Shown here: positions 1 through 58,190 of the stretch, piece by piece
Layout of the letters: every line of letters begins with the position of its first letter
Position numbering within the stretch: position 1 is the stretch's first letter
Source: a virus
Virus record (IMG/VR): IMGVR_UViG_3300022928_000025
Coordinates: 1-61,823 of that record
Length of the DNA stretch: 61,823 nt
Reading direction: 5' to 3' (one strand)
Notes under the pieces: generated by a model
Told to the model about the DNA's origin: nothing
Seen by the model: only the letters and a program-made list of their open reading frames with translations
Database searches by the model: none
Made by a program: the position numbers and the translations under genes

Positions 1-101
1 TACAACTGACCTTGGTCAATGTTCATTTCAATTTCTTCTTCTGAACAAGAGATGGCTTTGACAAGAGTACCGTCGGTTTCATAGACAGCATAAATATTCA
101 T
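1..101 (-). CDS. Tail-fibre-associated small protein, partial (C-terminus cut by window edge)
   Basis: Only the first 33 codons are present. They are base-for-base identical to the start of the complete gene at 58784-59170, and the first 112 bases of the window match 59070-59181 exactly. The start codon overlaps the stop codon of the fibre gene 98-2899 (ATGA), so the two are translationally coupled. On a circular genome this is the same gene as 58784-59170, seen a second time beside the other fibre allele. Function is inferred from position only: a small protein directly after a fibre gene is often a fibre chaperone or tip protein. Confidence 0.7.
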   Translation of the reverse strand, partial: MNIYAVYETDGTLVKAISCSEEEIEMNIDQGQL

Positions 102-2899
102 CGTTTAACCCCTAACAAAGAAATAAACCAGTTACCACCAATAGCGCCCGAACCCGTGCTACTCGCGTAAATACGATAAGTAGTATTCCCAGTAGAGGGT
201 GTATGAACAAAGCCCGCACTCATACAGTCAGAGAAACCTTGACGGCTGGTCTGCCCAACTATACCTTCTTGAGCACCTGAAGATATTCTTAGTCCACGAG
301 TAACTTCGTTACTACCAGTTATTGTGGCAATAATGTTTAGCTGACCAAAAAATTGCACTTGAGATGGCAGGAGTGACGCGTTAGAACCCCAGTTAACTGT
401 GATAGATCCGATTTGGGTCCATGCCGATCCTATAGAAACACCGCTTCCAGCTGATATAGCGCGAGGGACAGTAACATTTTCGCCGGCGATCTTTAGAGTC
501 GTTACCGCCAAATTTTCGATTTTTGCGTTGGTGACAGCTTCGTTTTGTATCTTTGCCGTCTCTACAGCTAAGTCTCTTATCTTTGCTGTGTCTACAGCTA
601 AGTCTCTTATCTTTGCCGTGTTTACAGCTAAGTCTCCGATCTTAGCTTCGTCGACTGCGAGGTCACCAATTTTAAGATTTGTTATCTGACCATTTTTTAT
701 ATATGCGTCGGTTATGTAGACGCCAGGTAAAACAGTTTCGCCATTGATCGTCGTGGTAGTAGTTTGGACTGTGAACGGAACAAGTCCAGTGCCGTTGGGC
801 CCGACGATGGCAAAACGATCAGCCGCAACTAAAAACTGTGAAGTGTCCCCTCCAGCCACCGAACTCGTAGTGGCTAACCCGAAGCCTGCAACGTAGTTCG
901 TATTGCCCACAGTACCAATTTTAACAGTGTACTGCCCTTCCAAAGACTCCCCGTCTGCTTTGGCAAAGTAGTTCTGTTCGACCGCTGCCGAAGTCGGATA
1001 ACCGGCTAGCGTGCTAGTGGCGACGAGGGTAGAAGTAGCACTTGCTATGGCTTGGTCGGCTTGTGCAGACGTATAGTAATTATTAGTTAGCGTAGCGTTC
1101 GTCGCATAGTCAGCACCGGTTACAGTCGCGCTAAGTGTAGTAACGGCGCTTGATATCGCGCTGTCTGTTTGAGCCTGCGTATAGTAATTGGTAGTTAGCG
1201 TAGCGTTCGTCGCATAGTCAGCACCGGTTACAGTCGCACCAAGCGCGTTAACGGCGCTTGATATCGCGCTGTCTGTTTGAGCCTGCGTATAGTAATTGGT
1301 AGTTAGCGTAGCGTTCGTCGCATAGTCAGCACCAGTTACAGTCGCACCAAGCGCGTTAACGGCGCTTGCTATTGCACTATTTGCATCGGTCTTCGTATAG
1401 TAATTGGTGTTTAAGTCAGCAGTAGTTGTGTAATTACCTAATGCAGTAGTGGAGACTAAGTTTTGAGTCGCTGTAGATATAGCGCTGTCCGTGTCGGTAC
1501 GCGTGTAGTAATTGACAGTCAAGTTAGCAGTAGTTGTGTAATTACCTAACGTAGTAGTAGAGACTAAGTTTTGAGTCGCAGTAGAGATAGCACTGTCTGT
1601 GTCGGCACGCGTGTAATACGTCGAAGTTAGGTCGGCAGTGGTTGTGTAATTACCTAAAGATGCGATAGATGCAAGGCTCTGAGTCGCAGTAGAGATAGCA
1701 CTGTCCGCTTGGGCAGAAGTGTAATAATCGTTAGTCAGAGTTGCCCTTGTAGCTACTAACCCCGTAGTCGGGTTGTTAACAGTGGCCTCTAATACGTCTG
1801 AACGGCTAGACAATGCTGAATCAGCAGTGACCCGCGAAGTTTTTTCACTAAATACGAGCCCCGCCGATAACTGATTAACATCTGTGCCGTTGTAACCACC
1901 TCGCATCTGCGTGGCAAGAGTCTCTCTACTTGTAGCCTCTGCACTATCTGCGTCAGTTCGAGCAGTCGCTTCCTGCTGCAGAGCTGCTATAGATGCATAG
2001 TTTCCTGGCAAAGTTGTCGAAGTCAGGGTGGTTATCTGTTGTTCTACTGCTGCGTCACCATTACTACGCGCTAAAGCCTCATCAATTAACGCTTGCGCGC
2101 GCGTAGATGCCTCTGCACTAAGGGCAGTAGTTCTAGCGGATGCTTCTGCTTGAATAGCAGCAATACGCGCATTCGTTTCAGCTAATATGGCCGCATTACG
2201 AGCTGTCACTTCATCCGCAATTTCTTGGCCTATTCTCACATTGACAGAACCAGCGCCATTCCCATCAATTAAATTAATTCTAGAGGTAAGAGTGCTATAC
2301 AGCTGGCTTTCTGTAATCTCGCCAGTTAATAGCTCAAGCATAAATTCTACATCTACAGCGGTTTCTGCAAATGTACCAGCGCTTGAGTTCCACGGCCCTT
2401 TTTGATCGCGAGTATTTACATGCCGCACCCAATAATAATAAGACTGTGCTGACCCAACTTGGTCAGTAAAAACACTGCCGTGCTCAACCCCAACAAGAAT
2501 TGCATCCGCCAGTTGATCAACTGTATGGCGCCACACTTCTGTGTAAGCATGCGGCGAATATTGAAGATACGCTTGATCCCAATCAAGAATAATGATGCTG
2601 TAAGCGCCGGTCGCCTCAAACCCCGTAGGCGCCGTTGGTAAATCCGTCTCATTAACGTCTGTACCAATTGGCAGCAGACTAGACTGAGACTGCCCAAGAA
2701 TAAACGGCTTACCTTCGACAGCTAACCCGCTGTCAATTAACTCACGCGCAGTGATTGCTCTGTCCCTTGAGTCGCCTCGGCGCCCCAAACGAATTTCGAG
2801 AGCCTCTGCGACAGACTCTAAGTACCGCCTCATCGCGGGCGAAGCATCGGCGGGGAGCTTAGGGAATCCAGGAATTTTGGTTTCTTTAGGCGTCCTCAT
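98..2899 (-). CDS. Tail fibre / receptor-binding protein with lambda J-like C-terminal half (allele A, complete)
   Basis: A 933-residue fibre. Residues about 85-180 resemble the fibronectin-III-like module of lambda tip protein J (PTGFEATGAY, then a YTEVWRH core and an aromatic HVNTR strand). A coiled-coil stretch follows (TARNAAI, AEASART), then about seven 34-36-residue repeats of the type NYYTQAQTDSAISSAV. Next comes a short domain like the central fibre domain of J (EGQYTVKIG, VAGFGLA), a ladder of ten-residue repeats (AKIRDLAVDT), and a conserved 120-residue tip ending GGNWFISLLGVKR. The N-terminus overlaps the gene at 2896-4617 by 4 nt. J proteins belong to long-tailed phages, so a J-like fibre in a short-tailed phage is a modular exchange. 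A second, divergent allele fills 59167-61823. Confidence 0.8.
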   Translation of the reverse strand: MRTPKETKIPGFPKLPADASPAMRRYLESVAEALEIRLGRRGDSRDRAITARELIDSGLAVEGKPFILGQSQSSLLPIGTDVNETDLPTAPTGFEATGAYSIIILDWDQAYLQYSPHAYTEVWRHTVDQLADAILVGVEHGSVFTDQVGSAQSYYYWVRHVNTRDQKGPWNSSAGTFAETAVDVEFMLELLTGEITESQLYSTLTSRINLIDGNGAGSVNVRIGQEIADEVTARNAAILAETNARIAAIQAEASARTTALSAEASTRAQALIDEALARSNGDAAVEQQITTLTSTTLPGNYASIAALQQEATARTDADSAEATSRETLATQMRGGYNGTDVNQLSAGLVFSEKTSRVTADSALSSRSDVLEATVNNPTTGLVATRATLTNDYYTSAQADSAISTATQSLASIASLGNYTTTADLTSTYYTRADTDSAISTATQNLVSTTTLGNYTTTANLTVNYYTRTDTDSAISTATQNLVSTTALGNYTTTADLNTNYYTKTDANSAIASAVNALGATVTGADYATNATLTTNYYTQAQTDSAISSAVNALGATVTGADYATNATLTTNYYTQAQTDSAISSAVTTLSATVTGADYATNATLTNNYYTSAQADQAIASATSTLVATSTLAGYPTSAAVEQNYFAKADGESLEGQYTVKIGTVGNTNYVAGFGLATTSSVAGGDTSQFLVAADRFAIVGPNGTGLVPFTVQTTTTTINGETVLPGVYITDAYIKNGQITNLKIGDLAVDEAKIGDLAVNTAKIRDLAVDTAKIRDLAVETAKIQNEAVTNAKIENLAVTTLKIAGENVTVPRAISAGSGVSIGSAWTQIGSITVNWGSNASLLPSQVQFFGQLNIIATITGSNEVTRGLRISSGAQEGIVGQTSRQGFSDCMSAGFVHTPSTGNTTYRIYASSTGSGAIGGNWFISLLGVKR
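1030..1740 (-). repeat. Tandem repeats encoding the fibre shaft (about 108-nt period)
   Basis: Within the fibre gene the same segment recurs with near-identical DNA. The block beginning GTAGTTAGCG at 1191 is repeated at 1299, a period of 108 nt or 36 residues, and more diverged copies lie on both sides. The encoded unit is a Tyr-Tyr-Thr start, a short helix rich in Ala/Ser, and a GADYATNATL turn. Repeats this similar allow the shaft to lengthen or shorten by recombination. Confidence 0.8.
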
Positions 2900-4617
2900 G
2901 CATTTATCTCCGCCATAGTAGACGCAAGCACTATCTCGTTAACTTGGTGTGTCGAGCTCACCTCTACTTCCCACTCGCATCCGTAGTTAGAAGGTAACCT
3001 CATGACAGGCGCGGTGAGGTTCCCGTTAGAGATACCAGCAGGGACAGTAGTCACCTGAGTGTAAACTCCGGCTGTCTCTTGCAGCTGATAATCAGCTATA
3101 AGGACTCCATCACCCCAGACTTTTACATCTATAGGATACTGGTCGCTGTGGACTTTTATGCAGCCCATACTTGTTGGTGTGCTCACAAACTTACGACTCT
3201 TCCAAGACGACGTGCGCTTAACACTTGACCCTCGAAACTCGACAATTTCATTATCAATAATGAGATAAAGCTTACCTGTCTTTTTCCGAGTGAAACCGCC
3301 ACGCACTTCATTACTCATCGTAAAAGTAGAGAAGGCATTCTGTGGTTGTCGAGGGTCAAATATCCATCCGCCGTCGTTAGCGCCGTCATTCCAGAACGCG
3401 ACGTACAGTCCTTCGTATAAGAAGGCTTTGTAGGTCGACGCGTAGAAGTCAGCCGCCCACTGTTTTGGCTCTATAAACTCAGAGGAGACAACCGACCCTG
3501 TGGTGTTGGACACTTGTACGAGCCCGTCAGGACCGGCATAGAGTACGTACTCTCCCATATCAACAATTGACTCTTTGTTGATGCATGACTGAGCAACGTC
3601 TACTTGTATAGCGGTCATGGCCGAGGGTTCAGTGCCAGTGACAAAATAAGGGTAGCCCTTGGTCATTACCACTAAGCCATTGTTAGTTGCTGACAGTCCC
3701 ACTATCTCTTCTTCTATCGTGAGTCGATACTGGATAGGCCAAGCATGGGGCAGGTACGGTTCAGACAAACATAGTCGAGCGCCGGCGAATCCGGCAAAGA
3801 CACCATTTCCAATAGGAAGCAGCCCCTGCAAGGGACCGTCGGGATAAAGAGATGTGTTGTCATCTGGCGGGCCAACCCAAGTCTCAGAAGGCAGTACTTC
3901 GCCTAAAGCCGCTGACGCTTTGTTATCGCTGTAACTAACAGTGGAGAATGGAACCTCTGCAACAAACTGAAAGTAAGTCGCTGTACTACCAACGTTAGCG
4001 CGATATATGCGTTTTAATCCGTTACTAAAATCATAAGCGCCTGACGGATCGTTTGCGCTCGGCATCGAGATAGAAACCGTTTCAGTTGAAGTCCACTCAA
4101 CAATTGCAGATGCGGGACTTGGAGGCCCCTCTTCTCCGAAACTCGTAACTAACGTATAGACGTAAGATAAGTCCTGTGCTTCTTCTGTGTCGCTGGCTGT
4201 GCCTGTCTTGGACAGCGTAGGTGCACTAGTAGGTGCAGGTACCCCTAACCTATAAGATGCCGCCGGAAATACCGAGCCACTTATCATGCTGGTATATGTG
4301 CCCACGCGCGGATAATCTTGCCCTGTCCAATAGGCTCTTTCGTAAGTGTCTTGTGCAATAGGTGACTGTACTACAGAGATATTGGCTTCGTTAAACTCAA
4401 ATACAGCCCCGCCATCTATGCCGATGCGCTCATAATAATAAAGAGATTGGCGCTGGCCATTTGACAGCGTAGCAACGGCCAGATCTTCCTCAATAGGCGA
4501 CAAGCGCCCAGTGGTAAAGGTCACATTCTCCGCTTTCTGGCCAAGTGTTTCGCCGAGAAGTCTGGCTGATTTCGCCGGTGCAATACCGGCAAAACTTTCG
4601 AGTCTGAATACGGCCAT
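2896..4617 (-). CDS. Virion structural protein, probable tail nozzle/hub component
   Basis: 573 residues, no signal peptide or membrane segment, mostly short beta-strand-like stretches with aromatic turns (for example YVLYAGPDGLV and YVAFWNDGAND), a pattern like propeller or nozzle proteins. It lies directly before the J-like fibre (4-nt overlap) and after three small membrane or coiled-coil proteins in the late operon. I recognise no catalytic motif. By size and position it could be the equivalent of the T7 gp12-type nozzle that carries the fibre, but the adaptor-like genes are 22 kb away, so that assignment is an inference. Alternatives are a minor tail protein or fibre adaptor. Confidence 0.55.
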   Translation of the reverse strand: MAVFRLESFAGIAPAKSARLLGETLGQKAENVTFTTGRLSPIEEDLAVATLSNGQRQSLYYYERIGIDGGAVFEFNEANISVVQSPIAQDTYERAYWTGQDYPRVGTYTSMISGSVFPAASYRLGVPAPTSAPTLSKTGTASDTEEAQDLSYVYTLVTSFGEEGPPSPASAIVEWTSTETVSISMPSANDPSGAYDFSNGLKRIYRANVGSTATYFQFVAEVPFSTVSYSDNKASAALGEVLPSETWVGPPDDNTSLYPDGPLQGLLPIGNGVFAGFAGARLCLSEPYLPHAWPIQYRLTIEEEIVGLSATNNGLVVMTKGYPYFVTGTEPSAMTAIQVDVAQSCINKESIVDMGEYVLYAGPDGLVQVSNTTGSVVSSEFIEPKQWAADFYASTYKAFLYEGLYVAFWNDGANDGGWIFDPRQPQNAFSTFTMSNEVRGGFTRKKTGKLYLIIDNEIVEFRGSSVKRTSSWKSRKFVSTPTSMGCIKVHSDQYPIDVKVWGDGVLIADYQLQETAGVYTQVTTVPAGISNGNLTAPVMRLPSNYGCEWEVEVSSTHQVNEIVLASTMAEINA

Positions 4618-5565: not shown

Positions 5566-6231
5566 TCATAATTCAGGAAACAAACAATCCTGAATAAACG
5601 TATTAACTACCTCCTCCTGATACCCTAGCGCTGCCATGACTTTTGGTGTGTGTGGGTTCTGCTTCTGCCAGTAACAGTACTTATTCTGCGCTGCCGTGTA
5701 GTCCGTTGCACTTCGACTACCCACATTCTCTAGATAATAATCTAAGTTGCTACTGACTAACTGCACCACTTTATCTAGTTCATCTAAGTCCGTGATAAAA
5801 CCAGCAGCGACCATGTTGCTACTAAAAATATTCCTTGCCCACTCAGGCAACTCTCTTTCTTTCGACCAGCTGAACGGTGTTACTTGGTCTTCGAACTTCA
5901 AGAGCATTTCGTGACTTTCATCTATAGGACTGAAGTCATGGAATGCACCTGTTACTTTCTTAGGCCCCGCGATAAGGTCAAAACCAAAAACCGGTGCACC
6001 GTCGTTTGTGTGCGGGAACACGGTAAGATGCATCATATAGAGCTTCTTAGTATCCCTAGCATCTACAACATCAAGATGCGCCCTTCTAAACTTATCCGAT
6101 CGCCATAAGAAGTTTTGCCACGGATACCGATGCCCTTCGTCGTAGGTCTCGAACCCGTCAAACTTCGACACCAGAATATCTTTTGCTTGCTCTAACTTAG
6201 TGAATATTGTGCTTGGCTGCGACTTTGTCAT
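5566..6231 (-). CDS. Ferredoxin-dependent bilin reductase (PcyA/PcyX/PebS family)
   Basis: 221 residues. The FDBR core is visible: His68 in HLTVFP, then FGFDLIAG with Asp85, then FHDFSPID. The 17-residue spacing His68-Asp85 equals that of the catalytic His88/Asp105 pair of Synechocystis PcyA. The PcyA Glu76 position (HLE) reads HLD (Asp54) here. A C-terminal FIQDCLF carries Asp215, a candidate for the second catalytic Asp known from PebS. Such enzymes reduce biliverdin with electrons from ferredoxin to phycocyanobilin or phycoerythrobilin. Viral members include PebS of cyanophages and PcyX of marine metagenomic phages; the Glu-to-Asp change and the non-cyanobacterial context make a PcyX-like enzyme most likely, but product specificity is not readable from sequence. 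The start lies 35 nt inside the heme oxygenase gene. No ferredoxin gene is present, so the host must supply reductant. Confidence 0.9.
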   Translation of the reverse strand: MTKSQPSTIFTKLEQAKDILVSKFDGFETYDEGHRYPWQNFLWRSDKFRRAHLDVVDARDTKKLYMMHLTVFPHTNDGAPVFGFDLIAGPKKVTGAFHDFSPIDESHEMLLKFEDQVTPFSWSKERELPEWARNIFSSNMVAAGFITDLDELDKVVQLVSSNLDYYLENVGSRSATDYTAAQNKYCYWQKQNPHTPKVMAALGYQEEVVNTFIQDCLFPEL

Positions 6232-6739
6232 ATAGGCTAATTACAAACTCAAATGCGTGAATGGCTTCTTGTTTTGTTTTTTCACTGTCGGTCAGAGAAG
6301 CTCTAATTTTTTTAATGAGATCCTCTCTATCAGTAAAATCGTAACGCCTACATTTTCCTGGTAACTTGTTCTTTAGAATCTGACCGCCGAAAAGGTCACC
6401 CATGTGATGAACGTAAAGATGGGCTAAAACCCCTTCATTATCCTGTTTCCATATGTGGTCGCAGTAGTCATCAATAAAAGGCTCGTAAGCACTTGTGCCT
6501 AACCCGTTATCACTTATTAACTCAACAAGGTCTTCAAGCATAAGTTGGTAGCGGGACACCCCAGCGAGTTCTGCTAACAACCCCTCTTTTCTCGCTTTGC
6601 TCTCAAGATCCCCATAAACTATGAGTAAGCTTGCCAACAGATCCGCATAGACCTCTGCGGCTATCCCACCCGTTATCATCGCTTGGGCTAACGGGTGATG
6701 TTCGGCTCTATCGTGTATTGGTTTTATCGCTTCTCGCAT
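6197..6739 (-). CDS. Heme oxygenase (biliverdin-forming)
   Basis: 180 residues, slightly shorter than bacterial heme oxygenases. The N-terminus REAIKPIHDRAEHHP matches the proximal-helix signature (R-E-x-x-x-x-x-H-x-x-A-E), with His9 as the likely axial heme ligand. The distal helix is HHMGDLFGGQIL, the family GDLxGGQ motif whose glycines flex over the heme. The enzyme cleaves heme to biliverdin, Fe2+ and CO using O2 and reduced ferredoxin. Its product is the substrate of the bilin reductase whose reading frame starts within its last 35 nt, so the two are coupled at translation. Both lie inside the late structural operon, so they should be made late in infection. Confidence 0.93.
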   Translation of the reverse strand: MREAIKPIHDRAEHHPLAQAMITGGIAAEVYADLLASLLIVYGDLESKARKEGLLAELAGVSRYQLMLEDLVELISDNGLGTSAYEPFIDDYCDHIWKQDNEGVLAHLYVHHMGDLFGGQILKNKLPGKCRRYDFTDREDLIKKIRASLTDSEKTKQEAIHAFEFVISLYDKVAAKHNIH

Positions 6740-6757: not shown

Positions 6758-6994
6758 CTACCATTTACCTAAAGGACAAGACACCGCTCCGCCCATACGG
6801 ATTTTAAATGGCATAAAGCATCCACATTCCCTGCAAACTTTAATCTTCTCGTTTAACGAAGGGCACTCCGAGCAAATTTCTTTTCTTTTTACTACAAGGG
6901 ACGTTTGTGTTTCTTCACCGGCTAACTTTATATCTGAACTCTCATCCCAACTTTTACTCACTTCCATATCCTGCCCCGAATTAGCTGACCTCAC
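6758..6994 (-). CDS. Small zinc-ribbon-like phage protein
   Basis: 78 residues. The last 40 carry six cysteines: CSEC-P, then CRECGC, then a final SCPLGKW. Spacing fits one treble-clef or ribbon zinc site and matches small zinc-ribbon proteins seen among tail genes of many phages. It shares a base with the gene at 6994-7332 and lies 18 nt ahead of the heme oxygenase. I considered an iron-sulfur donor to the bilin reductase, but the pattern lacks ferredoxin spacing. Confidence 0.65.
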   Translation of the reverse strand: MRSANSGQDMEVSKSWDESSDIKLAGEETQTSLVVKRKEICSECPSLNEKIKVCRECGCFMPFKIRMGGAVSCPLGKW

Positions 6995-7332
6995 TAGATT
7001 ATTTCCGCAAGCGGCACTTCAGTAACGCCGTCTAAATCTCGTTCTACTATGCGCGTTTTTAAGACCCATCGACCCTCTATTAGTGATGGAGAGTCATCAA
7101 GTAGTATAGTTTGAGTGCCGAAGTCGAAATCATAAGTAATATCATCATAAAACACCTCGACAATAGAGAAGTTAGAACTTTCCCCCTCTTCTGTTAAATC
7201 ATAAAGTAGCGGAAGGTGAGTCTTCTGATCAAACTTAGTTGAAGGATTCTCTTCTTTAAGATTTTCTATACTGTAGGGAAACTGAATTACTACACCTCCC
7301 TTAATTTTCGCAAAACCTAAACTATCAGACAT
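6994..7332 (-). CDS. Hypothetical protein of the fibre region
   Basis: 112 residues, acidic, no membrane segment, mostly beta-type sequence (GGVVIQFPYS near the start, IVEVFYDDITYDFDFG in the middle). It follows the glycine-rich fibre tip gene by 16 nt and overlaps the zinc-ribbon gene by one base. Proteins with this start (a protein that reports on its own sequence with VxQFPYS) are common after phage fibre genes, which suggests a fibre-assembly or tip role; this is inference. Confidence 0.5.
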   Translation of the reverse strand: MSDSLGFAKIKGGVVIQFPYSIENLKEENPSTKFDQKTHLPLLYDLTEEGESSNFSIVEVFYDDITYDFDFGTQTILLDDSPSLIEGRWVLKTRIVERDLDGVTEVPLAEII

Positions 7333-7348: not shown

Positions 7349-8302
7349 TTAAGGAATCGGAGTGATTATGACGTAGCCAGTTGCTGTTCCTGGTTGTCCA
7401 CCCCTCTGAGAGCCATTTGTACCAACGTCAGCCCATGATGATATCCGTACTGGCCCGCTGGAACGGCGATACGAAGTGCCGCCGCCGCCGCCAACCGCGG
7501 GGCCGTTACCGCCAGCTACGCCTCCGTAGTACCCGCCAGCGCCGGCTGGACAACTCCCGCCACCGCTACCAAACCCACCAGGGCTGTTACCGCAGCCCGT
7601 CGTGGTGCCGCCACGCCCACCCTCTACAAAACAATAAGCGCGTTGGGGCTGATTACTAAGACAGTTGTATGAGCGAATAATATGTACACCCGTATAAAAA
7701 GAGGCGCCGCCGTCGTAGACACCATCTAAACCCGTACAGTCAGCGGAACTCCCCCTCTGGGACGTAGCAGGCCAACTGGTGGGGCCACCATCTTGGTTCG
7801 ACATTGCAACGCTATAACCACCACCACCGCCACCAGCTACAATAAGCGCATCGACGTTTGTATAGTTGTCTCCGCTGTTACAGATAGCGACGGCCGACAT
7901 ACCCCCACCAGAGTAGTTACCGGTGCCAGGGAGCCCTGCTAAGGCGACTAAACGAGCAGGCTGTTCAACAATTAAAGTACCTGAGATCATTGCGCCATAA
8001 CCGTGGCTTGTTCCTGATCCTTCTGCGCCGCCGATAGCGACCGAATATGATCCTTCAAAAATATCAAAATAGTGATACCCATTAGAGTAAACCCAGTTGG
8101 CCTCCGGCGGCATGCTCCAACTGCCAAGGCCAGTATAAGCCACTACTGGCGGCGGTTCGCTGCGGGTAGAAAGGGGTATAACACTCGTATTCACGTTTGC
8201 TTTTATATTTAAACTACTACTCCAAGCAACACCTCCTCCTGACGAAGAAGAGAACCCATACCCCTTTGCACTACCTACTGCGCGCGTATTCTGTATCGGC
8301 AT
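7349..8302 (-). CDS. Glycine-rich tail fibre tip / adhesin
   Basis: 317 residues. The C-terminal two thirds is built from glycine-rich loops (VAGGGGGGYSVAMS, FGSGGGSCPAGAGG, VGGGGGTSYRR) and ends in a hydrophobic ATGYVIITPIP strand. This layout is that of glycine-rich adhesin domains such as T-even gp38-like tips and bacterial glycine-rich surface proteins, where exposed loops between polyglycine sheets contact the receptor. Several cysteines (GSCPAGAGG, NCLSN, CTGLDG) could form disulfides. The position after the large fibre gene fits a receptor-contact role. Confidence 0.65.
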   Translation of the reverse strand: MPIQNTRAVGSAKGYGFSSSSGGGVAWSSSLNIKANVNTSVIPLSTRSEPPPVVAYTGLGSWSMPPEANWVYSNGYHYFDIFEGSYSVAIGGAEGSGTSHGYGAMISGTLIVEQPARLVALAGLPGTGNYSGGGMSAVAICNSGDNYTNVDALIVAGGGGGGYSVAMSNQDGGPTSWPATSQRGSSADCTGLDGVYDGGASFYTGVHIIRSYNCLSNQPQRAYCFVEGGRGGTTTGCGNSPGGFGSGGGSCPAGAGGYYGGVAGGNGPAVGGGGGTSYRRSSGPVRISSWADVGTNGSQRGGQPGTATGYVIITPIP

Positions 8303-8317
8303 AGAAAAATCCTTTAA

Positions 8318-11074
8318 TTACGCGAATTGCGTTTGGGAAGCTAAAACAGTGTATGTCCCAGACCCAGTTTTAATTACTACATAAGAATAGATATCTATCG
8401 ACGAGGCATTCCCTTCGGTTGGTGCCTCGCCGCCCTGCCATTTAGGAGTCACACCAGCGCCATCTATCTGCACCGAGGTGTTGTAGTAAGCCGTACCACC
8501 ACAAGTATTCACGAAGACAACTGTTATGGTTTCACCAACGTCCATCAAACTGTTTAAAGTAGTTGACGAATCCCCGCGTAAATTAATCGTAAAATTACCT
8601 GCCGCGTTAGAGGTGTAATAGATTATTTGTTGTGGCAGCGCGTCGAAATTGATAGTGCCGTTTGCAGCAGTCGCTGAAACTAAAACACTTTCCTTTATAT
8701 CGCCATTAAGTAATGCGGAGCTAAAAGTTTTGTTAGACAACGCTTGTACACTAGCTAATGTGACTAGCTCAATATCGCCCGATCCTAATAAGGAACCGCT
8801 ATTGATAGTTTTTATATCGGTGCCCGAGACAAGCGTATCCTGCTTGAGCGCTAAGCCAGTAGATAGGCTAGACGCCGCGGTGGCTTGTCCCGCGTCTATG
8901 TAGGTCTTAACTGCGTACTCAGTTGGCACTGCGGTATTACTATTGCCATTGAGTAAAGGATCTGAAGAGAATTCATTAATAGTCTCGCCAAGCTGCGCGC
9001 CAATTGACCCCAGCCTCAATGAGGTCAGGCCGGCAAGATCGAACGCGCTCGCATTAAGAGTTGCACGGCCGGTGGCTTGGTCAATACGGAAGTACTCGCC
9101 GACACGGAAATTTCCGTTCTGGTCTGTAGATACGTAATAAACTCGTCCTGGAAATACTTCATCAACCTCGTTCCCTTGTGCAGGGGCTTGAGTTGGTTCT
9201 CCTGGATAATTTGTAGTAGCGATGCCTCCAGTTCCTATGTTCAAGAAGTCATGGCCTGTCAATCTCACTTGCGAATACAAAGATCGCATAGTGATGCCGG
9301 TCCCGTCTGGAGAACCATTTACTTTCTCTTGGGCTAAATAAATGGCAATTTGGCTCGATGTATCTACATAAGTTCCTGCCGAGCTCTGGATAACGTACGT
9401 AATTGAGTCGCCGGCGATTTGAATACTTTGACCAGGAATCGGTTCTGCGGACAAATTGTCAGCTACAATAATAAAACCTTTTTGATCTTCTAGGGCGGCA
9501 GAACCTACTGTGCCTGCGCCGCCGCTAGTAAATGTCAGCGTATTGCCTGACAAGAAGGTTCCAGTCGCGCCAGAAACATAAACTTTATCTGCTGATATCT
9601 GAACATTTGTTACAGTCGCTGTACCTCCATCGGAGCTTGTGACTGTGTCCCCAACGTTTATCGCGCCGCCGCCGTAGATAAAATTAAGTTGCTGTCCGTG
9701 TATTTGACCGGTTTGTGATGTTTCGTTGGCATCAAAGCCACGAGATGTTGCACCCCACGTACCGTAGCTATTATTACCGTTGAGGGATCGGATAAAACCT
9801 CCCCCAGAAGCCGCGTACCCCATATAGCAATAGTATGTAAAACAAGAAACAATCTCTGCTTTACCACCGTCTTTTGTCCAAAAACCTACACCGTTATCAC
9901 TGATAATTGTGTAACCGTGAAACAACATACTTTTTGCGCCGGCGCCATGAACCGACCCATCAACTAAAGCGCCAATTGCACCAGAACAAATAGCGGCGCA
10001 TTCCAAGACATAAGGAGATTTCGTAGTAGCGGGCGAATTAACATTAAAACCGACAACAACGCCGGCTGGTGTTGATGTTGTTATATCTTCAGGGGTGCTA
10101 CCTGGAACCCAACCGGTCATGCCTTTAAAAGTCATCTTGTTCAAGATTGAGCCATTACTCATCTGGAACATGGTCGAAGTGTTCGTTAAAAGCGTGGGGT
10201 GTACGTTTACCGTTCGCTGGCTATCGCCAACTATGGCGACATCTGGTGGTACAACAATTGGGCATATTTCTGTATACGTACCCGCCGATACATTAATAGT
10301 AGCTGGGTTTCCGGCTGCAGCGGCAGCTGCACAGGCGGCTTTAATTGTGGCAAATGCACCAGAGATTGTTTCGCCATTATTAGTGTCTGAACCTGCGGGG
10401 GTCACATAATAAACATCGGGGGAATAGAGAGAACCACTAAACAAGAATGATTCCCAGAAAACACCGTCAGTGCTCGGCGTATTTCCTGTTGTGTTTTGTA
10501 CCGCGATATAAAGACTGCTGTTGTAATTCACCACATCATTAAGTTGGTATGCTACAGCGGCGTCGTAAATACCCTCCCATTGAACACTTTCTGTTAAACG
10601 AGCCCACGAGTTACCGACAGCGCCAGGATTTGTGTTGGTGTTGTCGACGTTAGCCACATACACAGTGGCGCCGTATGATACTGAGTCACCTACTTTATAT
10701 GCAGCGGCCGCGTCCCATTCACTTCTAAAATTCCAACCGCCAACAAACAATGTCCAATATTCAGTGTCTGTTGGGATATTCCCTGTTGATTGCACAAGAT
10801 TTGAATACATATACAAGTTGCTGCCGTAACGAACGACGCTACCGTACCCGTATTCAGTTGCCACATCCCAAAGACCGGAGAAAGCAACGCCATTAGTCAT
10901 CCGGCCCCAGAAAGTTGCGGCCGAGGTCAGCGTACCTGTGGTCCTTGCGGTGCTTATGTAGACATAAGAATTGCCTTTGAAAGAAACAACATCATTGAAC
11001 TGATATTCAGTAGAGACACTCCATTCGCCTTTGAATTGGAATCTTATTTTTCCAAGGTCAAGAATCTGAGCCAT
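8318..11074 (-). CDS. Large tail fibre / tailspike with carbohydrate-binding-like repeats and beta-helix
   Basis: 918 residues. Residues about 10-210 hold four 48-52-residue modules of the form W-x5-Y-x-x-x-DVVxYxGxxYxA (EYQFNDVVSFKGNSYV, EYGYGSVVRYGSNLYM, AYKVGDSVSYGATVYV, AYQLNDVVNYNSSLYI), the signature of chitin-binding type-3-like or fibre anchor domains. From about residue 220 (YVTPAGSDTNNG, FATIKAACAAA) starts a right-handed beta-helix like DUF1565 pectate-lyase-fold proteins, continuing to about 600. The tail carries the common fibre motif LSNKTFSSA and a compact C-terminal domain. It is likely a glycan-binding, perhaps glycan-cleaving, spike. No catalytic residues can be assigned by eye. 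Confidence 0.75.
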   Translation of the reverse strand: MAQILDLGKIRFQFKGEWSVSTEYQFNDVVSFKGNSYVYISTARTTGTLTSAATFWGRMTNGVAFSGLWDVATEYGYGSVVRYGSNLYMYSNLVQSTGNIPTDTEYWTLFVGGWNFRSEWDAAAAYKVGDSVSYGATVYVANVDNTNTNPGAVGNSWARLTESVQWEGIYDAAVAYQLNDVVNYNSSLYIAVQNTTGNTPSTDGVFWESFLFSGSLYSPDVYYVTPAGSDTNNGETISGAFATIKAACAAAAAAGNPATINVSAGTYTEICPIVVPPDVAIVGDSQRTVNVHPTLLTNTSTMFQMSNGSILNKMTFKGMTGWVPGSTPEDITTSTPAGVVVGFNVNSPATTKSPYVLECAAICSGAIGALVDGSVHGAGAKSMLFHGYTIISDNGVGFWTKDGGKAEIVSCFTYYCYMGYAASGGGFIRSLNGNNSYGTWGATSRGFDANETSQTGQIHGQQLNFIYGGGAINVGDTVTSSDGGTATVTNVQISADKVYVSGATGTFLSGNTLTFTSGGAGTVGSAALEDQKGFIIVADNLSAEPIPGQSIQIAGDSITYVIQSSAGTYVDTSSQIAIYLAQEKVNGSPDGTGITMRSLYSQVRLTGHDFLNIGTGGIATTNYPGEPTQAPAQGNEVDEVFPGRVYYVSTDQNGNFRVGEYFRIDQATGRATLNASAFDLAGLTSLRLGSIGAQLGETINEFSSDPLLNGNSNTAVPTEYAVKTYIDAGQATAASSLSTGLALKQDTLVSGTDIKTINSGSLLGSGDIELVTLASVQALSNKTFSSALLNGDIKESVLVSATAANGTINFDALPQQIIYYTSNAAGNFTINLRGDSSTTLNSLMDVGETITVVFVNTCGGTAYYNTSVQIDGAGVTPKWQGGEAPTEGNASSIDIYSYVVIKTGSGTYTVLASQTQFA

Positions 11075-28077: not shown

Positions 28078-29223
28078 TTACTGAGCAGTATCTAGGCAGA
28101 TAACACCGAAGTCTTCGACAGCGCCGTTGTAGTCGCTGTTGAACTTGGGCTTCTTCAGACCGAAGATCTTGCCGATAGAGATGCCTGACTGGTTGCCATA
28201 GTCGAAAGTATCTTCGACGATTTCTGGCGCGCCAATGTCAGCCATTGCAAGGGCTTGTGCTCCGCAGAACAGTGCGCGTGCGCCTGTAACATCTGCGTCT
28301 GCACCCCACTTGTAACCGGCAGCACCTGCGTTAGCAGAAGTTCCAGTAGTTCCGCCTTCAGTTGAGAAGACGTGACGGAACTCGTGACACATAACACCAT
28401 CAACCATCAGGCTGCTAGAGCCAGAGAACAAGCTGTTGCTTGTGCCACGGACGCCAGCGTTGCGGACGTTCGCAAGGAAGTCGGCATCGAGCTTGAGGTT
28501 AGCCATCTGCTGTGGGGTAACAAAGAGGTGGAATGTCTCTTCGTTGCCAGCACCGCGAATACCACGGATATAGTTATCCTTCGCGTAAGCTTTCAGTTCA
28601 ACGATCTGCTTGTAACCCAGCTTGTCAGTCGCTGTAACAGCAGTGGTATCACCAGTAGTAATATCAGAGCCGCTAACGCGAAGGTGACGAGCTGCAGTAG
28701 GCGTAGTTACGTCTGAGGCGTACTCAAGATCAGAAAGATCAAGACCTGCACCTGCGTTGTTTACTCGCAGCGCGCCGTTGGTCTTGTTTGTGTAAGCAAC
28801 ACCTGACAGCGTGAGGAATGCCAACTGATCCATACGGTCAGCCATAGCATAAGCCAGCGCGTCGCGTGAAGTTTCACGGAAGTTAACCACCGACTTCTGA
28901 TCCGCCATACGACCGGCAATGCGGTTAGCGAAACGAAGCTGATCGAGATTAACAACGATGTCATACGCACGTAGCGCTTCTTCGTTGCCTTCCAGAGTGT
29001 AGTCACCAGTTACACCGTCGCCAGTCATATCAGCAAGCAGTGTAATAACAGCACGGGTGCCTTTCTCAGAACGAGTAAGTTCAGTGATACGCTGAACCAT
29101 TGCATTTGAACCAGATCCTGCGAACTGGTTGATGAAGCTCATGTTACGAGCTTGACGCCAAAAATCCCGACTCCACGCGGTTAGTTGCTCAGAAGTCAGG
29201 CTAGCAAAATTTGTTAAAGCCAT
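28078..29223 (-). CDS. Major capsid protein (N4-gp56/DUF4043-like)
   Basis: 381 residues from the chosen start. The N-terminal signature SEQLTAWSRDFWRQARN, then FINQFAGSG, EKGTRAVITLLADM, and YDIVVNLDQLRFANRI, VVNFRETSRDALAYAMADRM is that of the N4-gp56/DUF4043 HK97-fold coat family. An ATG twelve bases upstream (29235) is also in frame, but GGAGG lies exactly 5 nt before the ATG at 29223, so that start is preferred. The gene is followed by a strong terminator and preceded by an unusually long leader of about 177 nt and an operator-controlled promoter at 29407-29435. It forms the icosahedral shell around the scaffold encoded upstream. Confidence 0.85.
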   Translation of the reverse strand: MALTNFASLTSEQLTAWSRDFWRQARNMSFINQFAGSGSNAMVQRITELTRSEKGTRAVITLLADMTGDGVTGDYTLEGNEEALRAYDIVVNLDQLRFANRIAGRMADQKSVVNFRETSRDALAYAMADRMDQLAFLTLSGVAYTNKTNGALRVNNAGAGLDLSDLEYASDVTTPTAARHLRVSGSDITTGDTTAVTATDKLGYKQIVELKAYAKDNYIRGIRGAGNEETFHLFVTPQQMANLKLDADFLANVRNAGVRGTSNSLFSGSSSLMVDGVMCHEFRHVFSTEGGTTGTSANAGAAGYKWGADADVTGARALFCGAQALAMADIGAPEIVEDTFDYGNQSGISIGKIFGLKKPKFNSDYNGAVEDFGVICLDTAQ

Positions 29224-29235
29224 GATGGCCTCCAT

Positions 29236-30759: not shown

Positions 30760-32877
30760 TTATCCTTTGGGGGTTAGAGATTTGTTGGTTTGTTGCATCG
30801 CCGTTGTGGCAATTCTTGTAGCCGCCGAAGTTTCTTGGTTAGTTCGGCGTGTAGTATTAGTTAGATCCGCAAGCTCTCTTCTGAGATTGAGCTCCATTTC
30901 CTTCATGCGCATCTGACTCTCAAGCTCCATGACCTTAAGCTGCGGCGTAACGTCTGCCACATCTTGAGTTTTCGCCATGTTGATCGCAGCTTCTGACTGC
31001 AGCTTCTGCACTTCTGCTCGTAACTTCTCGATAGTGAGCTGAATCTGCTCCATCTCCATTTCGTGATGGATCTGCTGCATCTGCGCTTGTTCTTCACTAG
31101 GCGGTTCAACACCAGTAACAGTGCGAATTCGTTTAGCCAGTTCACCCTTACGCGCGAGGTGGCTGTACTCTACGATAGCGTCATCTGGAATCATCACGCC
31201 TGCGCTGCGCAAACTCAGAGCCTCAGCGAACTGAATCTCGTCGAAGCTGTCGCGGGCGGGGGCTGTAGCAATAACTACATCGTATTCACCGATAGTTAGG
31301 TCATTAACAATTCGCCCCTCGGGAGTCATTTCGTTAATAACTATCGGCTCACGCGGCTTAAGGGGATCATCTTCATTTGTAATCTGAACTATTCGCTGCT
31401 CGGTGTAGAACCGCTGTATCAGATTCAGAATCTTCTCTGCCAAGTGCTGACGAGTCTTGTTCAAGTTATCCAGTGGCACCTGAATCATTATCGCGCCACG
31501 ATTCTGCTTAGCTTGTATCGCAATACCTGACACTTCAGCTGAGTCAGTACCCAGCATAGAGTCATTAATACCCGATATGGCTTTTATGTTTGCCGCCGCT
31601 TTCTGACCGATACGATCTAGACCAGTAGGGATAGTGTTAGGCTGAATCTTTTGGGGTGCCGTGGTGCCACGGGCGTACTCAAGCACGAGGCCAGTTTCGG
31701 CGCCATGCTCCTCGAGATCATCTGGTGTCATACCTACCAGTGAGCCGCTCTCTACCATCCACCCGCTATTAGCAGTGGTGTTAACAATATGCAGCTCTTG
31801 CGAAGCGATCTTGTTAAGCTGTTCTTGTGGGGATAACAGGTTACGTACCATGCCGAACGGACGACCGCGACGGAAGTAAGCGAAGAATGGTACTAACGTG
31901 AAGTCATCGTATGGCGACCAGTCATCGTGCAGCACAACTTTGTCACAGGTCACTGTCCAACGTACCTGCTTTACCATCTTAGTAATTACAGACAACCCGT
32001 GCTCTTTCGCGAACGCTTTCACCTTCCGCTCGTTCCAATTTTCTGGCACGCGCCTCTGGTCGCCGGTTGTGGGGTCGACATAGAAGTCTGACCTAGTCAG
32101 CTTTCGGTGCTGTCGCTCAATTACCCGAAGCGCCCTGACGTTTCGGTACTCTTCCTCTCCAGGAATCTGTGCACCTAAAAAATCTTCTCGGGTATCTATG
32201 TCGCCGTAGCGAGTCTCTTCGTACTCTACCGAGTCGCGGCCAAAACTGTTGCCGTTTTCTGCGATGAACTGCAGCTTGTCAGCTTTGTCTTTACCGTAGA
32301 CCTCTTCAATCTCGTCAAGGGTCATCCATTTCGTTTCGAATATCTCGTTCCAAGTGCGCGCGTCATACTCTTTTGCGTCTGGATCTATCAGTATATCCAG
32401 AGGATCTTTCGCCGTTATCCGCACCTCACCTTCAGTGCTGTCACTGAAATCTATGCGAACGTCAAAATAACCACGGCCATCAAGGATCAATCCGTCACTA
32501 AACACCTGCTGCTCTATCCAATCCATTTTGTTGTTGTCAGAGATCTGCATGAACAACTTAGTCAGTGTGTTCGCTATATCACCGTCGCCGCCTTTGCGGG
32601 GTTTAAACTTCACGTCTGCCCGCCGTGAGCTCTGCTCACCTAGCACCGTATTAACCGTAGGCAGGATCGTGTTAATTGTCAGAGCAGGACGTCCGGCCTG
32701 ATCGAGAGCTGCAATGTCTTCAGCCGCCCACTGATCACCTCGGTAATATGAGTCGCACTTCTTAGCCATTTCAATGTAATCAAGGTGGCCATTATCACGA
32801 GCACGTACATATCTGTCCCACTGGCCAGACGCAATCATGTGCTCTTTGTCTGCGGTCAATCGCTTTGTATTCTTCAT
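30760..32877 (-). CDS. Portal protein (P22-like)
   Basis: 705 residues. YIEMAKKCDSYYRGDQWAAE, LDQAGRPALTINTILPTVNT and VLGEQSSRRADVKFKPR are the opening of the P22-type portal family. A stem region (SPYDDFTLVPFFAYFRRGRP, then FGMVRNLLSPQEQLNKI), the helix with SGIAIQAKQNRGAIMIQVP, and a long C-terminal Gln/Glu-rich coiled coil (QMQQIHHEMEMEQIQLTIEK), a barrel-like extension, complete it. It forms the dodecameric DNA-entry ring that holds terminase and later the tail. It lies 3 nt after TerL. Confidence 0.9.
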   Translation of the reverse strand: MKNTKRLTADKEHMIASGQWDRYVRARDNGHLDYIEMAKKCDSYYRGDQWAAEDIAALDQAGRPALTINTILPTVNTVLGEQSSRRADVKFKPRKGGDGDIANTLTKLFMQISDNNKMDWIEQQVFSDGLILDGRGYFDVRIDFSDSTEGEVRITAKDPLDILIDPDAKEYDARTWNEIFETKWMTLDEIEEVYGKDKADKLQFIAENGNSFGRDSVEYEETRYGDIDTREDFLGAQIPGEEEYRNVRALRVIERQHRKLTRSDFYVDPTTGDQRRVPENWNERKVKAFAKEHGLSVITKMVKQVRWTVTCDKVVLHDDWSPYDDFTLVPFFAYFRRGRPFGMVRNLLSPQEQLNKIASQELHIVNTTANSGWMVESGSLVGMTPDDLEEHGAETGLVLEYARGTTAPQKIQPNTIPTGLDRIGQKAAANIKAISGINDSMLGTDSAEVSGIAIQAKQNRGAIMIQVPLDNLNKTRQHLAEKILNLIQRFYTEQRIVQITNEDDPLKPREPIVINEMTPEGRIVNDLTIGEYDVVIATAPARDSFDEIQFAEALSLRSAGVMIPDDAIVEYSHLARKGELAKRIRTVTGVEPPSEEQAQMQQIHHEMEMEQIQLTIEKLRAEVQKLQSEAAINMAKTQDVADVTPQLKVMELESQMRMKEMELNLRRELADLTNTTRRTNQETSAATRIATTAMQQTNKSLTPKG

Positions 32878-32879
32878 GG

Positions 32880-34526
32880 CTATGCACTCATCGCCGATTT
32901 GTTTTTAGGACCACCCTTAACAATATGGGCGAGCTTGTCCCTCCAAGAGGGAGTGTGAACAGTAGGCGCGTGATAACTTGAAAATTCAGCCATCATCAAT
33001 CCAAGCCACGCGAGCGCGTCGACCTGATCGTCATGGACGCCGTTTGGGAATCTCAATAGTTCTGCCACCAGCGGGCCTGTAAACACAGCATCACGAGGCA
33101 GGAATACCATCCCCTGCTGCATACGGCCTTGGATGGCGCGGGCGCGGGCTTCTTTGTCTCTTCTACCCGTGCGTAGGTCTTTGATGTACATTTCATACAA
33201 CCCCCTTTCACGCACACGTTTCTCAAGGAACGGGCCAAGGGCCATCTCGATGTGACCCTTCTCGATACCGACAATTGACGGTTTCCACTCGACGTATAAA
33301 TCCAAAATCTTCTCTACAATCTCGAACCCGTCAAACCGCCCACGGACAATGTCCATGACGTACAACTTGTCAGCCTCGTCGACGCCAATGACCATCCCAA
33401 CCGAGTAGTCGTTCCTGTCGTTTTTACCGATGGCTAAATCCCATGCGGCGTAGTACTTCATGCGGTCTTCGTCGATATCCTCAGGGTCGTAGTACTTAAT
33501 CATGCTGCGAGTAAAGTAATCACCCTCGTCTGCCACAGGATTCTGTTGATACAACGCGGACCAATCTCGAGGGCCAACTGCTTTTCGTATACGGTTAAGT
33601 GACGCGGCGTCATACCGATCAAGGTGTAACGGCTCGCCCATCTTCCGGTACTTCTCGTCTTCCTCAGCGATGGCGGGATAGCGAACTACTTCCCAATCGT
33701 CGCCGCCTTCGGTCGCCATTTTTAGTAGGCGCCCCGCAAGATCGTCGTCATGCCAACGAGTGAGAATAACCAGTACCCCGCCGCCAGGAGCCAGACGGGT
33801 GTACGCCGTTGACGTATACCAATCCCAGTTAGCCTCTCTATTATTCTGAGACTCAGCGTCTTCTCGGTTTTTTACGGGGTCATCGATAACTAATATGTGT
33901 GCCCCTTTACCCGTGATACCGCCACCAACACCTGCAGCAACAAAGCCGCCGCCACCAGTGGTGAGCCACGCTTCAGCACTTTGAGAGTCAGGATCTAGAC
34001 GTGTTTTGAAGGCACTCTTGTAGGACGGCTCTCGCAGCAGGTTACGCACCTTTCTCGAGAAACCCATCGCCAGTGAGCCTGAGTATGAGCAGCTAATGAA
34101 CTCGTGCTCAGGGTTACGTCCCAAGTGCCAAGCGGGGAACGCTACCGAGGCAAGTGTCGATTTCCCATGCCGAGGGGGCATGAACAACATTAACCGTGGC
34201 GACTTCTTATCAACCACGTCTTGTGAGAACTTCTCTAACCTTTGGCAAATGTCCTTGTGCACCCAGCCTGCTTGGTAATCTGGATTGAACCGCTCAACGA
34301 AGGGCAGCATCCGTTTACGCGTGAGGATACGCATGGCCAACTCTTCGCGAGCCATTTCTTCAGAAGTTTTTGGTAGAGGGACATCAGTACTGGGGTCTTT
34401 CGGCGAAGGCAGGGAGTCCTGCCGGTCTGCTTGGCAGTACACACACCAGTTGTCCGCGCCCATAAGAGTAGACGGAACCGACTTCTTACACCGTTCGCAT
34501 GTGCTCTTGGGCGCTTCATCCGTCAT
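32880..34526 (-). CDS. terL: Terminase large subunit with N-terminal zinc ribbon
   Basis: 548 residues. Walker A-like PPRHGKST, Walker B ILVIDDP with the following K/R, motif III region VILTRWHDDD, and the RNase H-type nuclease WDLAIGKNDRND then VDIVRGRF and later HDDQVDALAW. This motor packages DNA into the prohead and cuts it. The first 40 residues hold CERCKKSVP and WCVYCQADR, two CxxC pairs forming a zinc ribbon, an addition not present in most TerL proteins. It overlaps TerS by 11 nt. Confidence 0.92.
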   Translation of the reverse strand: MTDEAPKSTCERCKKSVPSTLMGADNWCVYCQADRQDSLPSPKDPSTDVPLPKTSEEMAREELAMRILTRKRMLPFVERFNPDYQAGWVHKDICQRLEKFSQDVVDKKSPRLMLFMPPRHGKSTLASVAFPAWHLGRNPEHEFISCSYSGSLAMGFSRKVRNLLREPSYKSAFKTRLDPDSQSAEAWLTTGGGGFVAAGVGGGITGKGAHILVIDDPVKNREDAESQNNREANWDWYTSTAYTRLAPGGGVLVILTRWHDDDLAGRLLKMATEGGDDWEVVRYPAIAEEDEKYRKMGEPLHLDRYDAASLNRIRKAVGPRDWSALYQQNPVADEGDYFTRSMIKYYDPEDIDEDRMKYYAAWDLAIGKNDRNDYSVGMVIGVDEADKLYVMDIVRGRFDGFEIVEKILDLYVEWKPSIVGIEKGHIEMALGPFLEKRVRERGLYEMYIKDLRTGRRDKEARARAIQGRMQQGMVFLPRDAVFTGPLVAELLRFPNGVHDDQVDALAWLGLMMAEFSSYHAPTVHTPSWRDKLAHIVKGGPKNKSAMSA

Positions 34527-56199: not shown

Positions 56200-56814
56200 A
56201 TGCAAACCGTACCGAAGCCAATAACGAACGATGTTAAGACTTCAAATCTCAAGAAAGTTTGGAACGAAAAGAAACGAATTCTTGATATCACTCAGCAGAC
56301 AGCTGCTCAACAACTAGGGATTACGCAAGGAGCATTTTCTCAGTATCTCAATGGCCATTGCCCACTTAATGAAAAGGCTACTATGAAAATAGCCAAATTC
56401 TTAGGTGTTCACCCTGAAGTCATTGATCCTAATTTCAGAGATAACGTTAATATTATAAAACGTCATCAATGGAAAGCGGTTGTTTCTCACACGTCATCAG
56501 ACGCTAATAAAGAACTAGGTGAACTGGTAGAAAGTAAGTTTGATGAGCAGCCTTTGTATATAAGAATAGATAAGGTTACGAAGATTTTTGATCCTAACGG
56601 TGAACTTATATCGATCCTACCGAAAGAAGCTTTATTAGCGCTTATAGACATCCGAAATCCGAAGTACCCCGTCAAAAGAAAATGCAAAGATAACATATAT
56701 GCAATTGTGAGTAAGAATAAAAAATCTTACTCTTTTATATGTGATTCAAGGCCACCCGCCTATGGAAACAATACAGTTACTATTTATCAAGTGGTAAATG
56801 TTGTTTATTTGTAA
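56200..56814 (+). CDS. XRE-family phage repressor without S24 peptidase site
   Basis: 204 residues. HTH at about 25-80: TAAQQLGITQGAFSQYLNG and MKIAKFLGVHPEVI. The C-terminal part (LYIRIDKVTKIFDPNGELIS to VVNVVYL) is beta-rich but has no Ser/Lys pair of a LexA-type self-cleaving domain, so SOS-induced cleavage is unlikely. Probably the lysogeny repressor; GGAG is 5 nt ahead of the ATG. Confidence 0.75.
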   Translation: MQTVPKPITNDVKTSNLKKVWNEKKRILDITQQTAAQQLGITQGAFSQYLNGHCPLNEKATMKIAKFLGVHPEVIDPNFRDNVNIIKRHQWKAVVSHTSSDANKELGELVESKFDEQPLYIRIDKVTKIFDPNGELISILPKEALLALIDIRNPKYPVKRKCKDNIYAIVSKNKKSYSFICDSRPPAYGNNTVTIYQVVNVVYL

Positions 56815-56926: not shown

Positions 56927-57154
56927 TTGATGCTTTCTAAACTATTACTTCAGTGTCATGGCCCTTTAATGGACATGGACGACTTAGCAGGCGCGCTTAA
57001 AATAAAACGTGAGTCTCTCTACCAACGAATTTACTACGGGAAACTAGAGATTCCCCACATGAAGAACGGAAAGAAGTATCTATTCAAAACACAGGATGTC
57101 GCTGAATACATACAAAGTGAGTTTGAACGAGCTACTTCTTTAACTACCCATTGA
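56927..57154 (+). CDS. xis: Excisionase-like HTH protein (MerR/HTH_17 type)
   Basis: 75 residues. DMDDLAGALKIKRESLYQRI, YYGKLEIPHMKNGKKYLFKT and QDVAEYIQSE is the winged-helix pattern of excisionases and HTH_17 proteins. It runs towards the integrase and overlaps its 3' end by 11 nt on the opposite strand. It likely controls the direction of recombination and may act as a second regulator of the operators. Confidence 0.7.
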   Translation: MMLSKLLLQCHGPLMDMDDLAGALKIKRESLYQRIYYGKLEIPHMKNGKKYLFKTQDVAEYIQSEFERATSLTTH

Positions 57155-58190
57155 GCTTATCTACTAAAGACGACGCATTTAGCTGTGTGTACCGCAGCAG
57201 CTGCTTCCAATCTTTATGTCCTGATATTCTCGCCACCTCTTGGATCTGAAGACCTTTTTCAAAGAACCGAGAGACAGCTTCGTGCCGAAGATCGTGGAAG
57301 TGAAGTTCTGGTAACCCAGCTTCTTCCCGTACCTTCACGAACCTATCACTAATTGATTGAGCTAACTTCACCCCTGGAAAGACAGCGCCTGTCCGTTTAC
57401 TTTCAACCGGCACCCAAGTCTTAAGAACCTCCAACGCCTTATTTGACACTGGTATGATCTGGTTATTACCCATCTTTTCACTTGGGTGCTTCCGGTCTTT
57501 AATAAAAATAGTGCTCTGTTTGAAGTCGACATCCTTCCACTGCAACGCTTGGATCTCTCCTTGCCGCATGCCAGTTTCAACTGCCAGCATAATGATTGGC
57601 CCTATCCATCCCGAGTGGTGCTTTAAGCTGGCCTCCATAAGCTGTTTCAGTTCCTGATCACTTACTCTACGCTCCCTCCTGCGACTACCACCCACCAAAC
57701 CTATCTTTGACAGCGCTGACAGCGCGTCTCTTGCTGGGTTAGATGGCAGGTCTACGCCCCACAAAGTCCTAGCGTGGTCTATGGTCTGGGCGACGTAAGT
57801 AAGCTGCTGGTTAAGAGTAGACCTGCTGATTGGCGCTCGGCCCTTGTACCCTGCCCTTCGCTTCTCGGCATATTTAAATAACATGTCGGGCGTAAGCTGA
57901 ATAACACGCACACCTTTAAAATGCTCGGCTGTCATTTTAATGGTGGTCATCTTGCTACGTGCAAAGGGTCGATGGGGGTGAACTTCGTCGATGTACCGAT
58001 GTAGCAGGTAGTCTAGCGTGTAGCCTTCGACTGCTTTAGATTTAGGCAGTGGTTCAGACTTAAGTTCTGCCTTTTTAAGGACAGCCCAATTCTCTGCAGC
58101 TGCTTTTGTGGGGAAGGTTTTATTATATCGCTTACGGTTATGAGAGATGACGCATAACCAGCTGTTACCCCGTCTTGTAATACTCGCCAT
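57144..58190 (-). CDS. int: Tyrosine integrase
   Basis: 348 residues. N-terminal arm-binding beta domain (ITRRGNSWLCVISHNRKRYN), core-binding helices, and a catalytic domain with Arg209 (ETGMRQGEI), Lys231 or Lys234, His299 and Arg302 (HFHDLRHEA), His325 (ISGHKDW), Tyr334 (LLRYTQ). All residues of the R-K-H-R-H-Y set are in place, so the enzyme should be active. It catalyses recombination between attP (upstream, 58211-58444) and attB. Confidence 0.93.
   Translation of the reverse strand: MASITRRGNSWLCVISHNRKRYNKTFPTKAAAENWAVLKKAELKSEPLPKSKAVEGYTLDYLLHRYIDEVHPHRPFARSKMTTIKMTAEHFKGVRVIQLTPDMLFKYAEKRRAGYKGRAPISRSTLNQQLTYVAQTIDHARTLWGVDLPSNPARDALSALSKIGLVGGSRRRERRVSDQELKQLMEASLKHHSGWIGPIIMLAVETGMRQGEIQALQWKDVDFKQSTIFIKDRKHPSEKMGNNQIIPVSNKALEVLKTWVPVESKRTGAVFPGVKLAQSISDRFVKVREEAGLPELHFHDLRHEAVSRFFEKGLQIQEVARISGHKDWKQLLRYTQLNASSLVDKLNG

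Follow-up and report, generated by a model that had tools for sequence, protein, structure and literature searches.

The window, here meaning the whole stretch of 61,823 nt that was analysed (IMG/VR virus record IMGVR_UViG_3300022928_000025), is a virus contig carrying genes for a P22-like portal, a large terminase, a KPP25-type capsid, DNA polymerase A, a tyrosine integrase and a repressor-like regulator. A first-pass annotation had pointed to two overlapping genes with intact family motifs, located on the late strand with fibre genes around them, and both open reading frames are found as described with the expected residues conserved (Table 1). The first encodes a heme oxygenase (HO), matching the Pfam family Heme_oxygenase PF01126 with an E-value of 1.2e-13 (51.8 bits, cut-off 23), and the second a ferredoxin-dependent bilin reductase (FDBR), matching Fe_bilin_red PF05996 with 5.9e-23 (82.2 bits, cut-off 31). 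A relative of the small DUF6171-like protein encoded upstream of HO is also found upstream of HO in three other loci (L030, L031 and L034).

Table 1. Features of the window discussed in the text, in order of position
Feature	Position	Strand	Evidence or remark
Tail-tip fibre protein, allele 1	98..2899	(-)	PF09327 1.6e-11
573-aa tail-region protein, downstream of cassette	2896..4617	(-)	homologue similarly placed in contig G767
Ferredoxin-dependent bilin reductase (FDBR), PcyX clade, 221 aa	5566..6231	(-)	Pfam, tree, fold; Asp54, His68, Asp85
HO/FDBR reading-frame overlap, 35 nt	6197..6231	(-)	
Heme oxygenase (HO, HemO), 180 aa	6197..6739	(-)	Pfam, AF2 fold, His9 proximal-type, MGDLFGGQ motif
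Small Cys-rich DUF6171-like protein, upstream of HO	6758..6994	(-)	
112-aa protein in the same gene run, upstream of cassette	6994..7332	(-)	no Pfam match
317-aa Gly-rich protein between fibre and cassette	7349..8302	(-)	no Pfam match at the cut-off used
918-aa tail-fibre protein	8318..11074	(-)	common to many cassette-bearing phages and T4-like marine phages
Major capsid protein, KPP25 type	28078..29235	(-)	55% to Pseudomonas phage KPP25
P22-like portal protein	30760..32877	(-)	PF16510 1.1e-120
Terminase large subunit	32880..34526	(-)	51% to Aeromonas phage phiA008
Repressor-like HTH regulator	56200..56814	(+)	phrog_8 1.4e-8, phrog_4 1.4e-6
Tyrosine integrase	57144..58190	(-)	PF00589 5.4e-31; phrog_1 2.5e-53
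Candidate attP core, reverse complement of a tRNA-Ser-like 3' end (GAGTTAAATCCCTCTCTCTCCGCCA)	58319..58343	(+)	putative, read from the sequence
Tail-tip fibre protein, allele 2 of the allele-1 locus	59167..61815	(-)	contig wraps round

Both proteins retain the residues and the fold of their families. His9, Asp115 and the GG of HO are invariant in 20 phage HOs, and the AlphaFold model of HO (pLDDT 95.3) matched solved heme oxygenases with an E-value of 1.1e-6 and rat HO-1 with a TM score of 0.84; the protein has the proximal His, the GDxxGGQ-type distal helix and the HO fold of heme oxygenases of the HO-1/HmuO type. For FDBR, numbered from Met1, His68 and Asp85 are each present in 117/117 distinct relatives, and its model (pLDDT 90.9) matched solved FDBRs, among them PcyA with an E-value of 2.6e-13, agreeing in fold with the structures of PcyA, PcyX and PebS (TM 0.71/0.86 to PcyX, 5owg). 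When compared by sequence with proteins of solved structure, FDBR gave its best match to PcyX_EBK42635 (2e-54), while PcyA matched with 2.8e-14. Chance as the source of the HO and FDBR matches is excluded.

In a maximum-likelihood tree, calculated without the alphaproteobacterial AX-clade PcyA and without the CB_2 sequence, the 221-residue reductase was placed in a clade of 29 rows (99/99) together with the crystallised PcyX_EBK42635 and the protein of Pelagibacter phage Mosig, while cyanobacterial and cyanophage PcyA fell outside this clade and cyanophage PebS formed a separate branch. The tree has long deep branches and does not resolve the Peb rows cleanly, and therefore only the placement with PcyX versus PcyA is used here. 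This phylogeny, suggested as a check in the first-pass annotation, bears out its reading of the pathway as PcyX-like. The same annotation had taken Asp54, which stands in the place of PcyA Glu76, as a hint of a different reduction product. The residue aligns, however, with the equivalent Asp of PcyX, the Asp55 described as the PcyX-specific catalytic residue (Wegner 2024, PMC11480375), and among 117 distinct relatives all but four have Asp (113) at the position, the exceptions being two with Glu, one with Asn and one with Val. Hence FDBR has the family and fold of PcyX, the clade, and Asp in place of Glu76 with the His and the second Asp kept, and since Asp54 is the hallmark of PcyX the predicted product is phycoerythrobilin (PEB). 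Among the relatives, FDBRs with Val or Asn for Asp54 are encoded at L299 4514-5180 and L036 3250-3946 and may give other reduction products. In a further contig (G011; L039 9484-11349) a tandem pair of FDBRs lies after HO, the product-determining position being Asp in one and Glu in the other, so that both PEB and PCB could be made; an AlaS-type aminotransferase is encoded on the same contig (G011:3732-4772).

Cassettes of HO and FDBR in phages of heterotrophs have already been published, in Mosig on SAR11 and in the CB_2 phage assigned to Methylocystis (Wegner 2024, PMC11480375). The window resembles the published hemO-pcyX cassettes in having HO beside FDBR, and the marine metagenome protein PcyX_EBK42635 (PDB 5owg) in the clade and the Asp/His/Asp active-site residues of its FDBR, but differs from the latter in that its cassette lies in a closed temperate genome with a P22-type portal and a KPP25-type capsid. 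As in the window, HemO and PcyX of Pelagibacter phage Mosig EXVC030M are encoded by neighbouring genes within the structural region, the proteins being 46.8% (FDBR) and 27% (HO) identical to those of the window. Unlike the window, Mosig is a SAR11 phage of the T4-like Kyanoviridae without an integrase match, and it has its own ferredoxin as well as ferrochelatase-like and four 2OG oxygenase genes nearby, none of which are found near the cassette of the window. The CB_2 phage from a peat bog, carrying vHemO and vPcyA/X, likewise combines HO with FDBR and has a non-photosynthetic host; its enzyme lacks the PcyX Asp and makes PCB, which was ascribed to the missing Asp55, and the phage has valaS (PMC11480375), whereas the window encodes Asp54 and gave no match to PF00155 (AlaS-type aminotransferase), so that the three-gene cassette with vAlaS is not present.

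When analysing the ends of the contig, the first 112 bases were found as an exact repeat at position 59070, and the region 59070-61823 re-reads positions 1 to ~2841 with another tail-tip allele, the flank being 93.6% identical and the middle divergent. The end repeat together with the re-read locus indicates a closed genome unit of ~59 kb with two fibre-tip alleles in the assembly. Within this unit the tRNA-Ser-like 3' end lies beside the integrase, which would be the position expected for the attP of a free phage. An integrase and a repressor-like gene are thus both present, in line with the temperate phage proposed in the first-pass annotation. A CsrA-like regulator is also phage-encoded (window 47784-47981, (+) strand; PF02599 2.7e-11; ORF assigned by sequence). 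The phage of the window was found in at least five contigs from other samples (L002-L005 and L014), while a search with positions 1-25000 of the window gave no near DNA match among 50,697 phage records.

A scan with the single protein gave 44 loci, all with HO upstream (44/44), and profile scans of IMG/VR gave at least 577 confirmed matches to FDBR and at least 580 to HO. Among the matches listed, HO was located within 3 kb of FDBR in 94/95 loci with enough sequence and FDBR beside HO in 64/65, but since both searches were seeded from linked pairs these fractions describe the PcyX clade only, and the HO profile, built from FDBR-linked HOs, leans towards pairing. The pairs are mostly overlapping or abutting, with 77 of the 94 paired loci in one gap class. 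The HO-FDBR pair is a known phage cargo that is much more widespread than described. Of the 50,697 annotated phage records, Mosig alone carries the HO type of the window. A bacterial origin of FDBR was considered and rejected, as no relative was recovered when 84,980 species genomes were scanned with two peptide patterns; matches to the FDBR family above cut-off were found in 1/385 alphaproteobacterial genomes, as two proteins too divergent to place. Within the two-pattern genome scan and the IMG/VR scan, PcyX is therefore found in phages and not in bacteria. Among 47 cassette-bearing records, many of which may be fragments, an integrase was found in only two, the window being one, a ferredoxin gene only in Mosig and an AlaS-type aminotransferase in five, the window not among them. 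Genes for the curli proteins CsgG and CsgF, ClpS and Hsp20 recur as neighbouring ORFs near the cassette in some of the phages.

With good probability, judging from the sequences of the two proteins, the chemistry encoded is that of a hemO-pcyX-type cassette, leading from heme by way of biliverdin to PEB. HO would open heme, presumably that of the host, giving biliverdin IXalpha, CO and Fe(II), and the PcyX-clade FDBR would take over the biliverdin and reduce it by four electrons to phycoerythrobilin. No ferredoxin gene was found in the window, and so the electrons would come from a host ferredoxin. A promoter scan was uninformative, with 3 hits versus 5.9 expected. The overlap of the two genes, the same-strand run of structural genes and the lack of a clear promoter of their own suggest that the proteins are probably produced late, once the prophage is induced or in lytic infection. 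Activities of phage HemO and PcyX have been published, while what phages of non-photosynthetic bacteria use bilin-making genes for is recognised as an open question (PMC11480375).

As the most likely use we tentatively propose, at somewhat less than an even chance, a turnover of heme during virion assembly whereby iron is freed and heme disposed of, the reductase pulling what would otherwise be a slow release of biliverdin. If the release of iron alone were the function, HO without FDBR should be common, but it is rare in the sample obtained with the FDBR-linked profile; that FDBR is nearly obligate argues for the bilin, or the removal of biliverdin, as well. Genes for 2OG-Fe(II) oxygenases adjoin the cassette in 6/24 representative loci, the window not among them, and such adjacency was observed 7 times versus 2.0 expected (permutation p ~0.001, post hoc and with few, partly related loci), which gives a lead for a role in iron use or disposal but is not decisive. 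Genes of this kind are also seen directly preceding the annotated pcyA of cyanophage Sf-CH3 (L224), directly before pebS in P-SSM2 (L209 560-2097, by sequence appearance only), and clustered with the ferrochelatase-like and HO genes in Mosig (L127).

It is also possible, if somewhat doubtful, that the reduced bilin itself is what is useful, as a radical scavenger, a photoprotectant or a signal, with CO possibly acting as a signal too. This would explain why FDBR is almost never dispensed with in the loci counted above (94/95 and 64/65, among the matches listed), and the characterised phage FDBRs yield four-electron-reduced bilins (PMC11480375). On the other hand, no phycobiliprotein-family gene was found in the 47 cassette-bearing records, in agreement with the earlier remark that no phycobilisome gene is present, and as position 54 is Glu, Asn or Val in a few relatives the identity of the product is not strictly kept across the family. 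A narrower use of the bilin, as chromophore for a host phytochrome by which the light sensing of the host or lysogen would be altered, appears improbable. The PcyA of the CB_2 phage does provide a working phytochrome chromophore (PMC11480375). That enzyme is, however, without the PcyX Asp, whereas Asp54 predicts PEB for the window. The adducts of phytochrome with PEB are photoinactive.

That the cassette feeds the phycobilisomes of a cyanobacterial host, as a light-harvesting gene of a cyanophage, is highly improbable. Relatives of the fibre protein do occur in T4-like phages of Synechococcus and Prochlorococcus, and cyanophages carry other bilin reductase genes, but the FDBR of the window, although of the same phage-borne family as the PcyA and PebS of phages with cyanobacterial hosts, lies outside both of their branches. 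The head genes point elsewhere as well. Besides its similarity to KPP25, the capsid is 47% identical to that of Aeromonas phage phiA008, and the capsid, portal and terminase module is shared with the group formed by KPP25, phiA008 and an Oceanisphaera prophage. A search of the 84,980 species genomes found the nearest capsids on gammaproteobacterial MAG contigs (82-83%), which were not counted as establishing the host because phage contigs readily end up in the wrong bin, and the nearest capsid in a named isolate on a 202 kb contig of Oceanisphaera litoralis (55%), the genome of which (G003), unlike the window, has no FDBR. The integrase has its nearest relatives in phages of Klebsiella, Pseudomonas and Marinobacter, at no more than 33-35%. 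A 23-nt core of the candidate attP had no exact match in 369 gammaproteobacterial genomes and, allowing 2 mismatches, none in four genomes with related capsids; as the pattern started with AAATCC, an attB of GAATCC type would be missed. The non-cyanobacterial host suggested in the first-pass annotation is thus also what the head genes and the integrase favour; a gammaproteobacterium is, from the head genes, probably the host and the best guess, and a cyanobacterial host is unlikely.

The surroundings of the cassette suggest that it sits in a transferable tail-fibre block. A second integrase-bearing carrier (G767, 55.7 kb, GC 58% compared with 47% for the window) has no detectable match to the capsid, portal or terminase of the window but keeps the same order of fibre (63%), HO (48%), FDBR (63%), tail-region protein (35%) and tail-tip fibre (53%), and the fibre gene is located ahead of the cassette in many other loci, though it is generally common in T4-like marine phages. 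Within the cassette, HO was swapped through a crossover inside the FDBR gene. When comparing the window with locus L006 (3428-5173), the DNA is 99.3% identical across 3146 bp downstream of window position 6146, approximately from FDBR codon 28 onward, while upstream of this crossover the HO is only 44% identical to that of the window, and in L006 a 2OG-Fe(II) oxygenase gene is inserted between HO and FDBR. As the HO is replaced while the FDBR core and its downstream flank are nearly unchanged, HO has been exchanged and the pair re-formed. Compared with locus L007, dN is 0.13 for FDBR and 0.33 for HO with synonymous change beyond the limit of the method, indicating that the proteins are under strong constraint. 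In moving together with the fibre gene among phages whose heads differ, the cassette behaves as functionless passengers carried along by recombination would, but this reading can hardly hold against the open frames, the invariant catalytic residues, the constraint on protein change over deep divergence and the re-forming of the pair after the exchange of HO.

A wider interpretation, in which HO-PcyX is a general heme-breakdown device acting at virion assembly, spread in hundreds of heterotroph phages within tail-fibre blocks that can be exchanged, and connected with phage Fe(II)/2-oxoglutarate oxygenases drawing on the iron released, with temperate carriers bringing the cassette into lysogens, would go further and is considered unlikely in this full form. 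What is new here is that the carrier is temperate and closed, how large and tight the family is, that it is linked to the tail block and that HO was exchanged, although the function is not thereby given. From the census, the HO-FDBR pair is a common and near-inseparable unit rather than a pelagiphage oddity, and a temperate carrier with a closed genome, whose host range is probably gammaproteobacterial, would allow tests in culturable lysogens.
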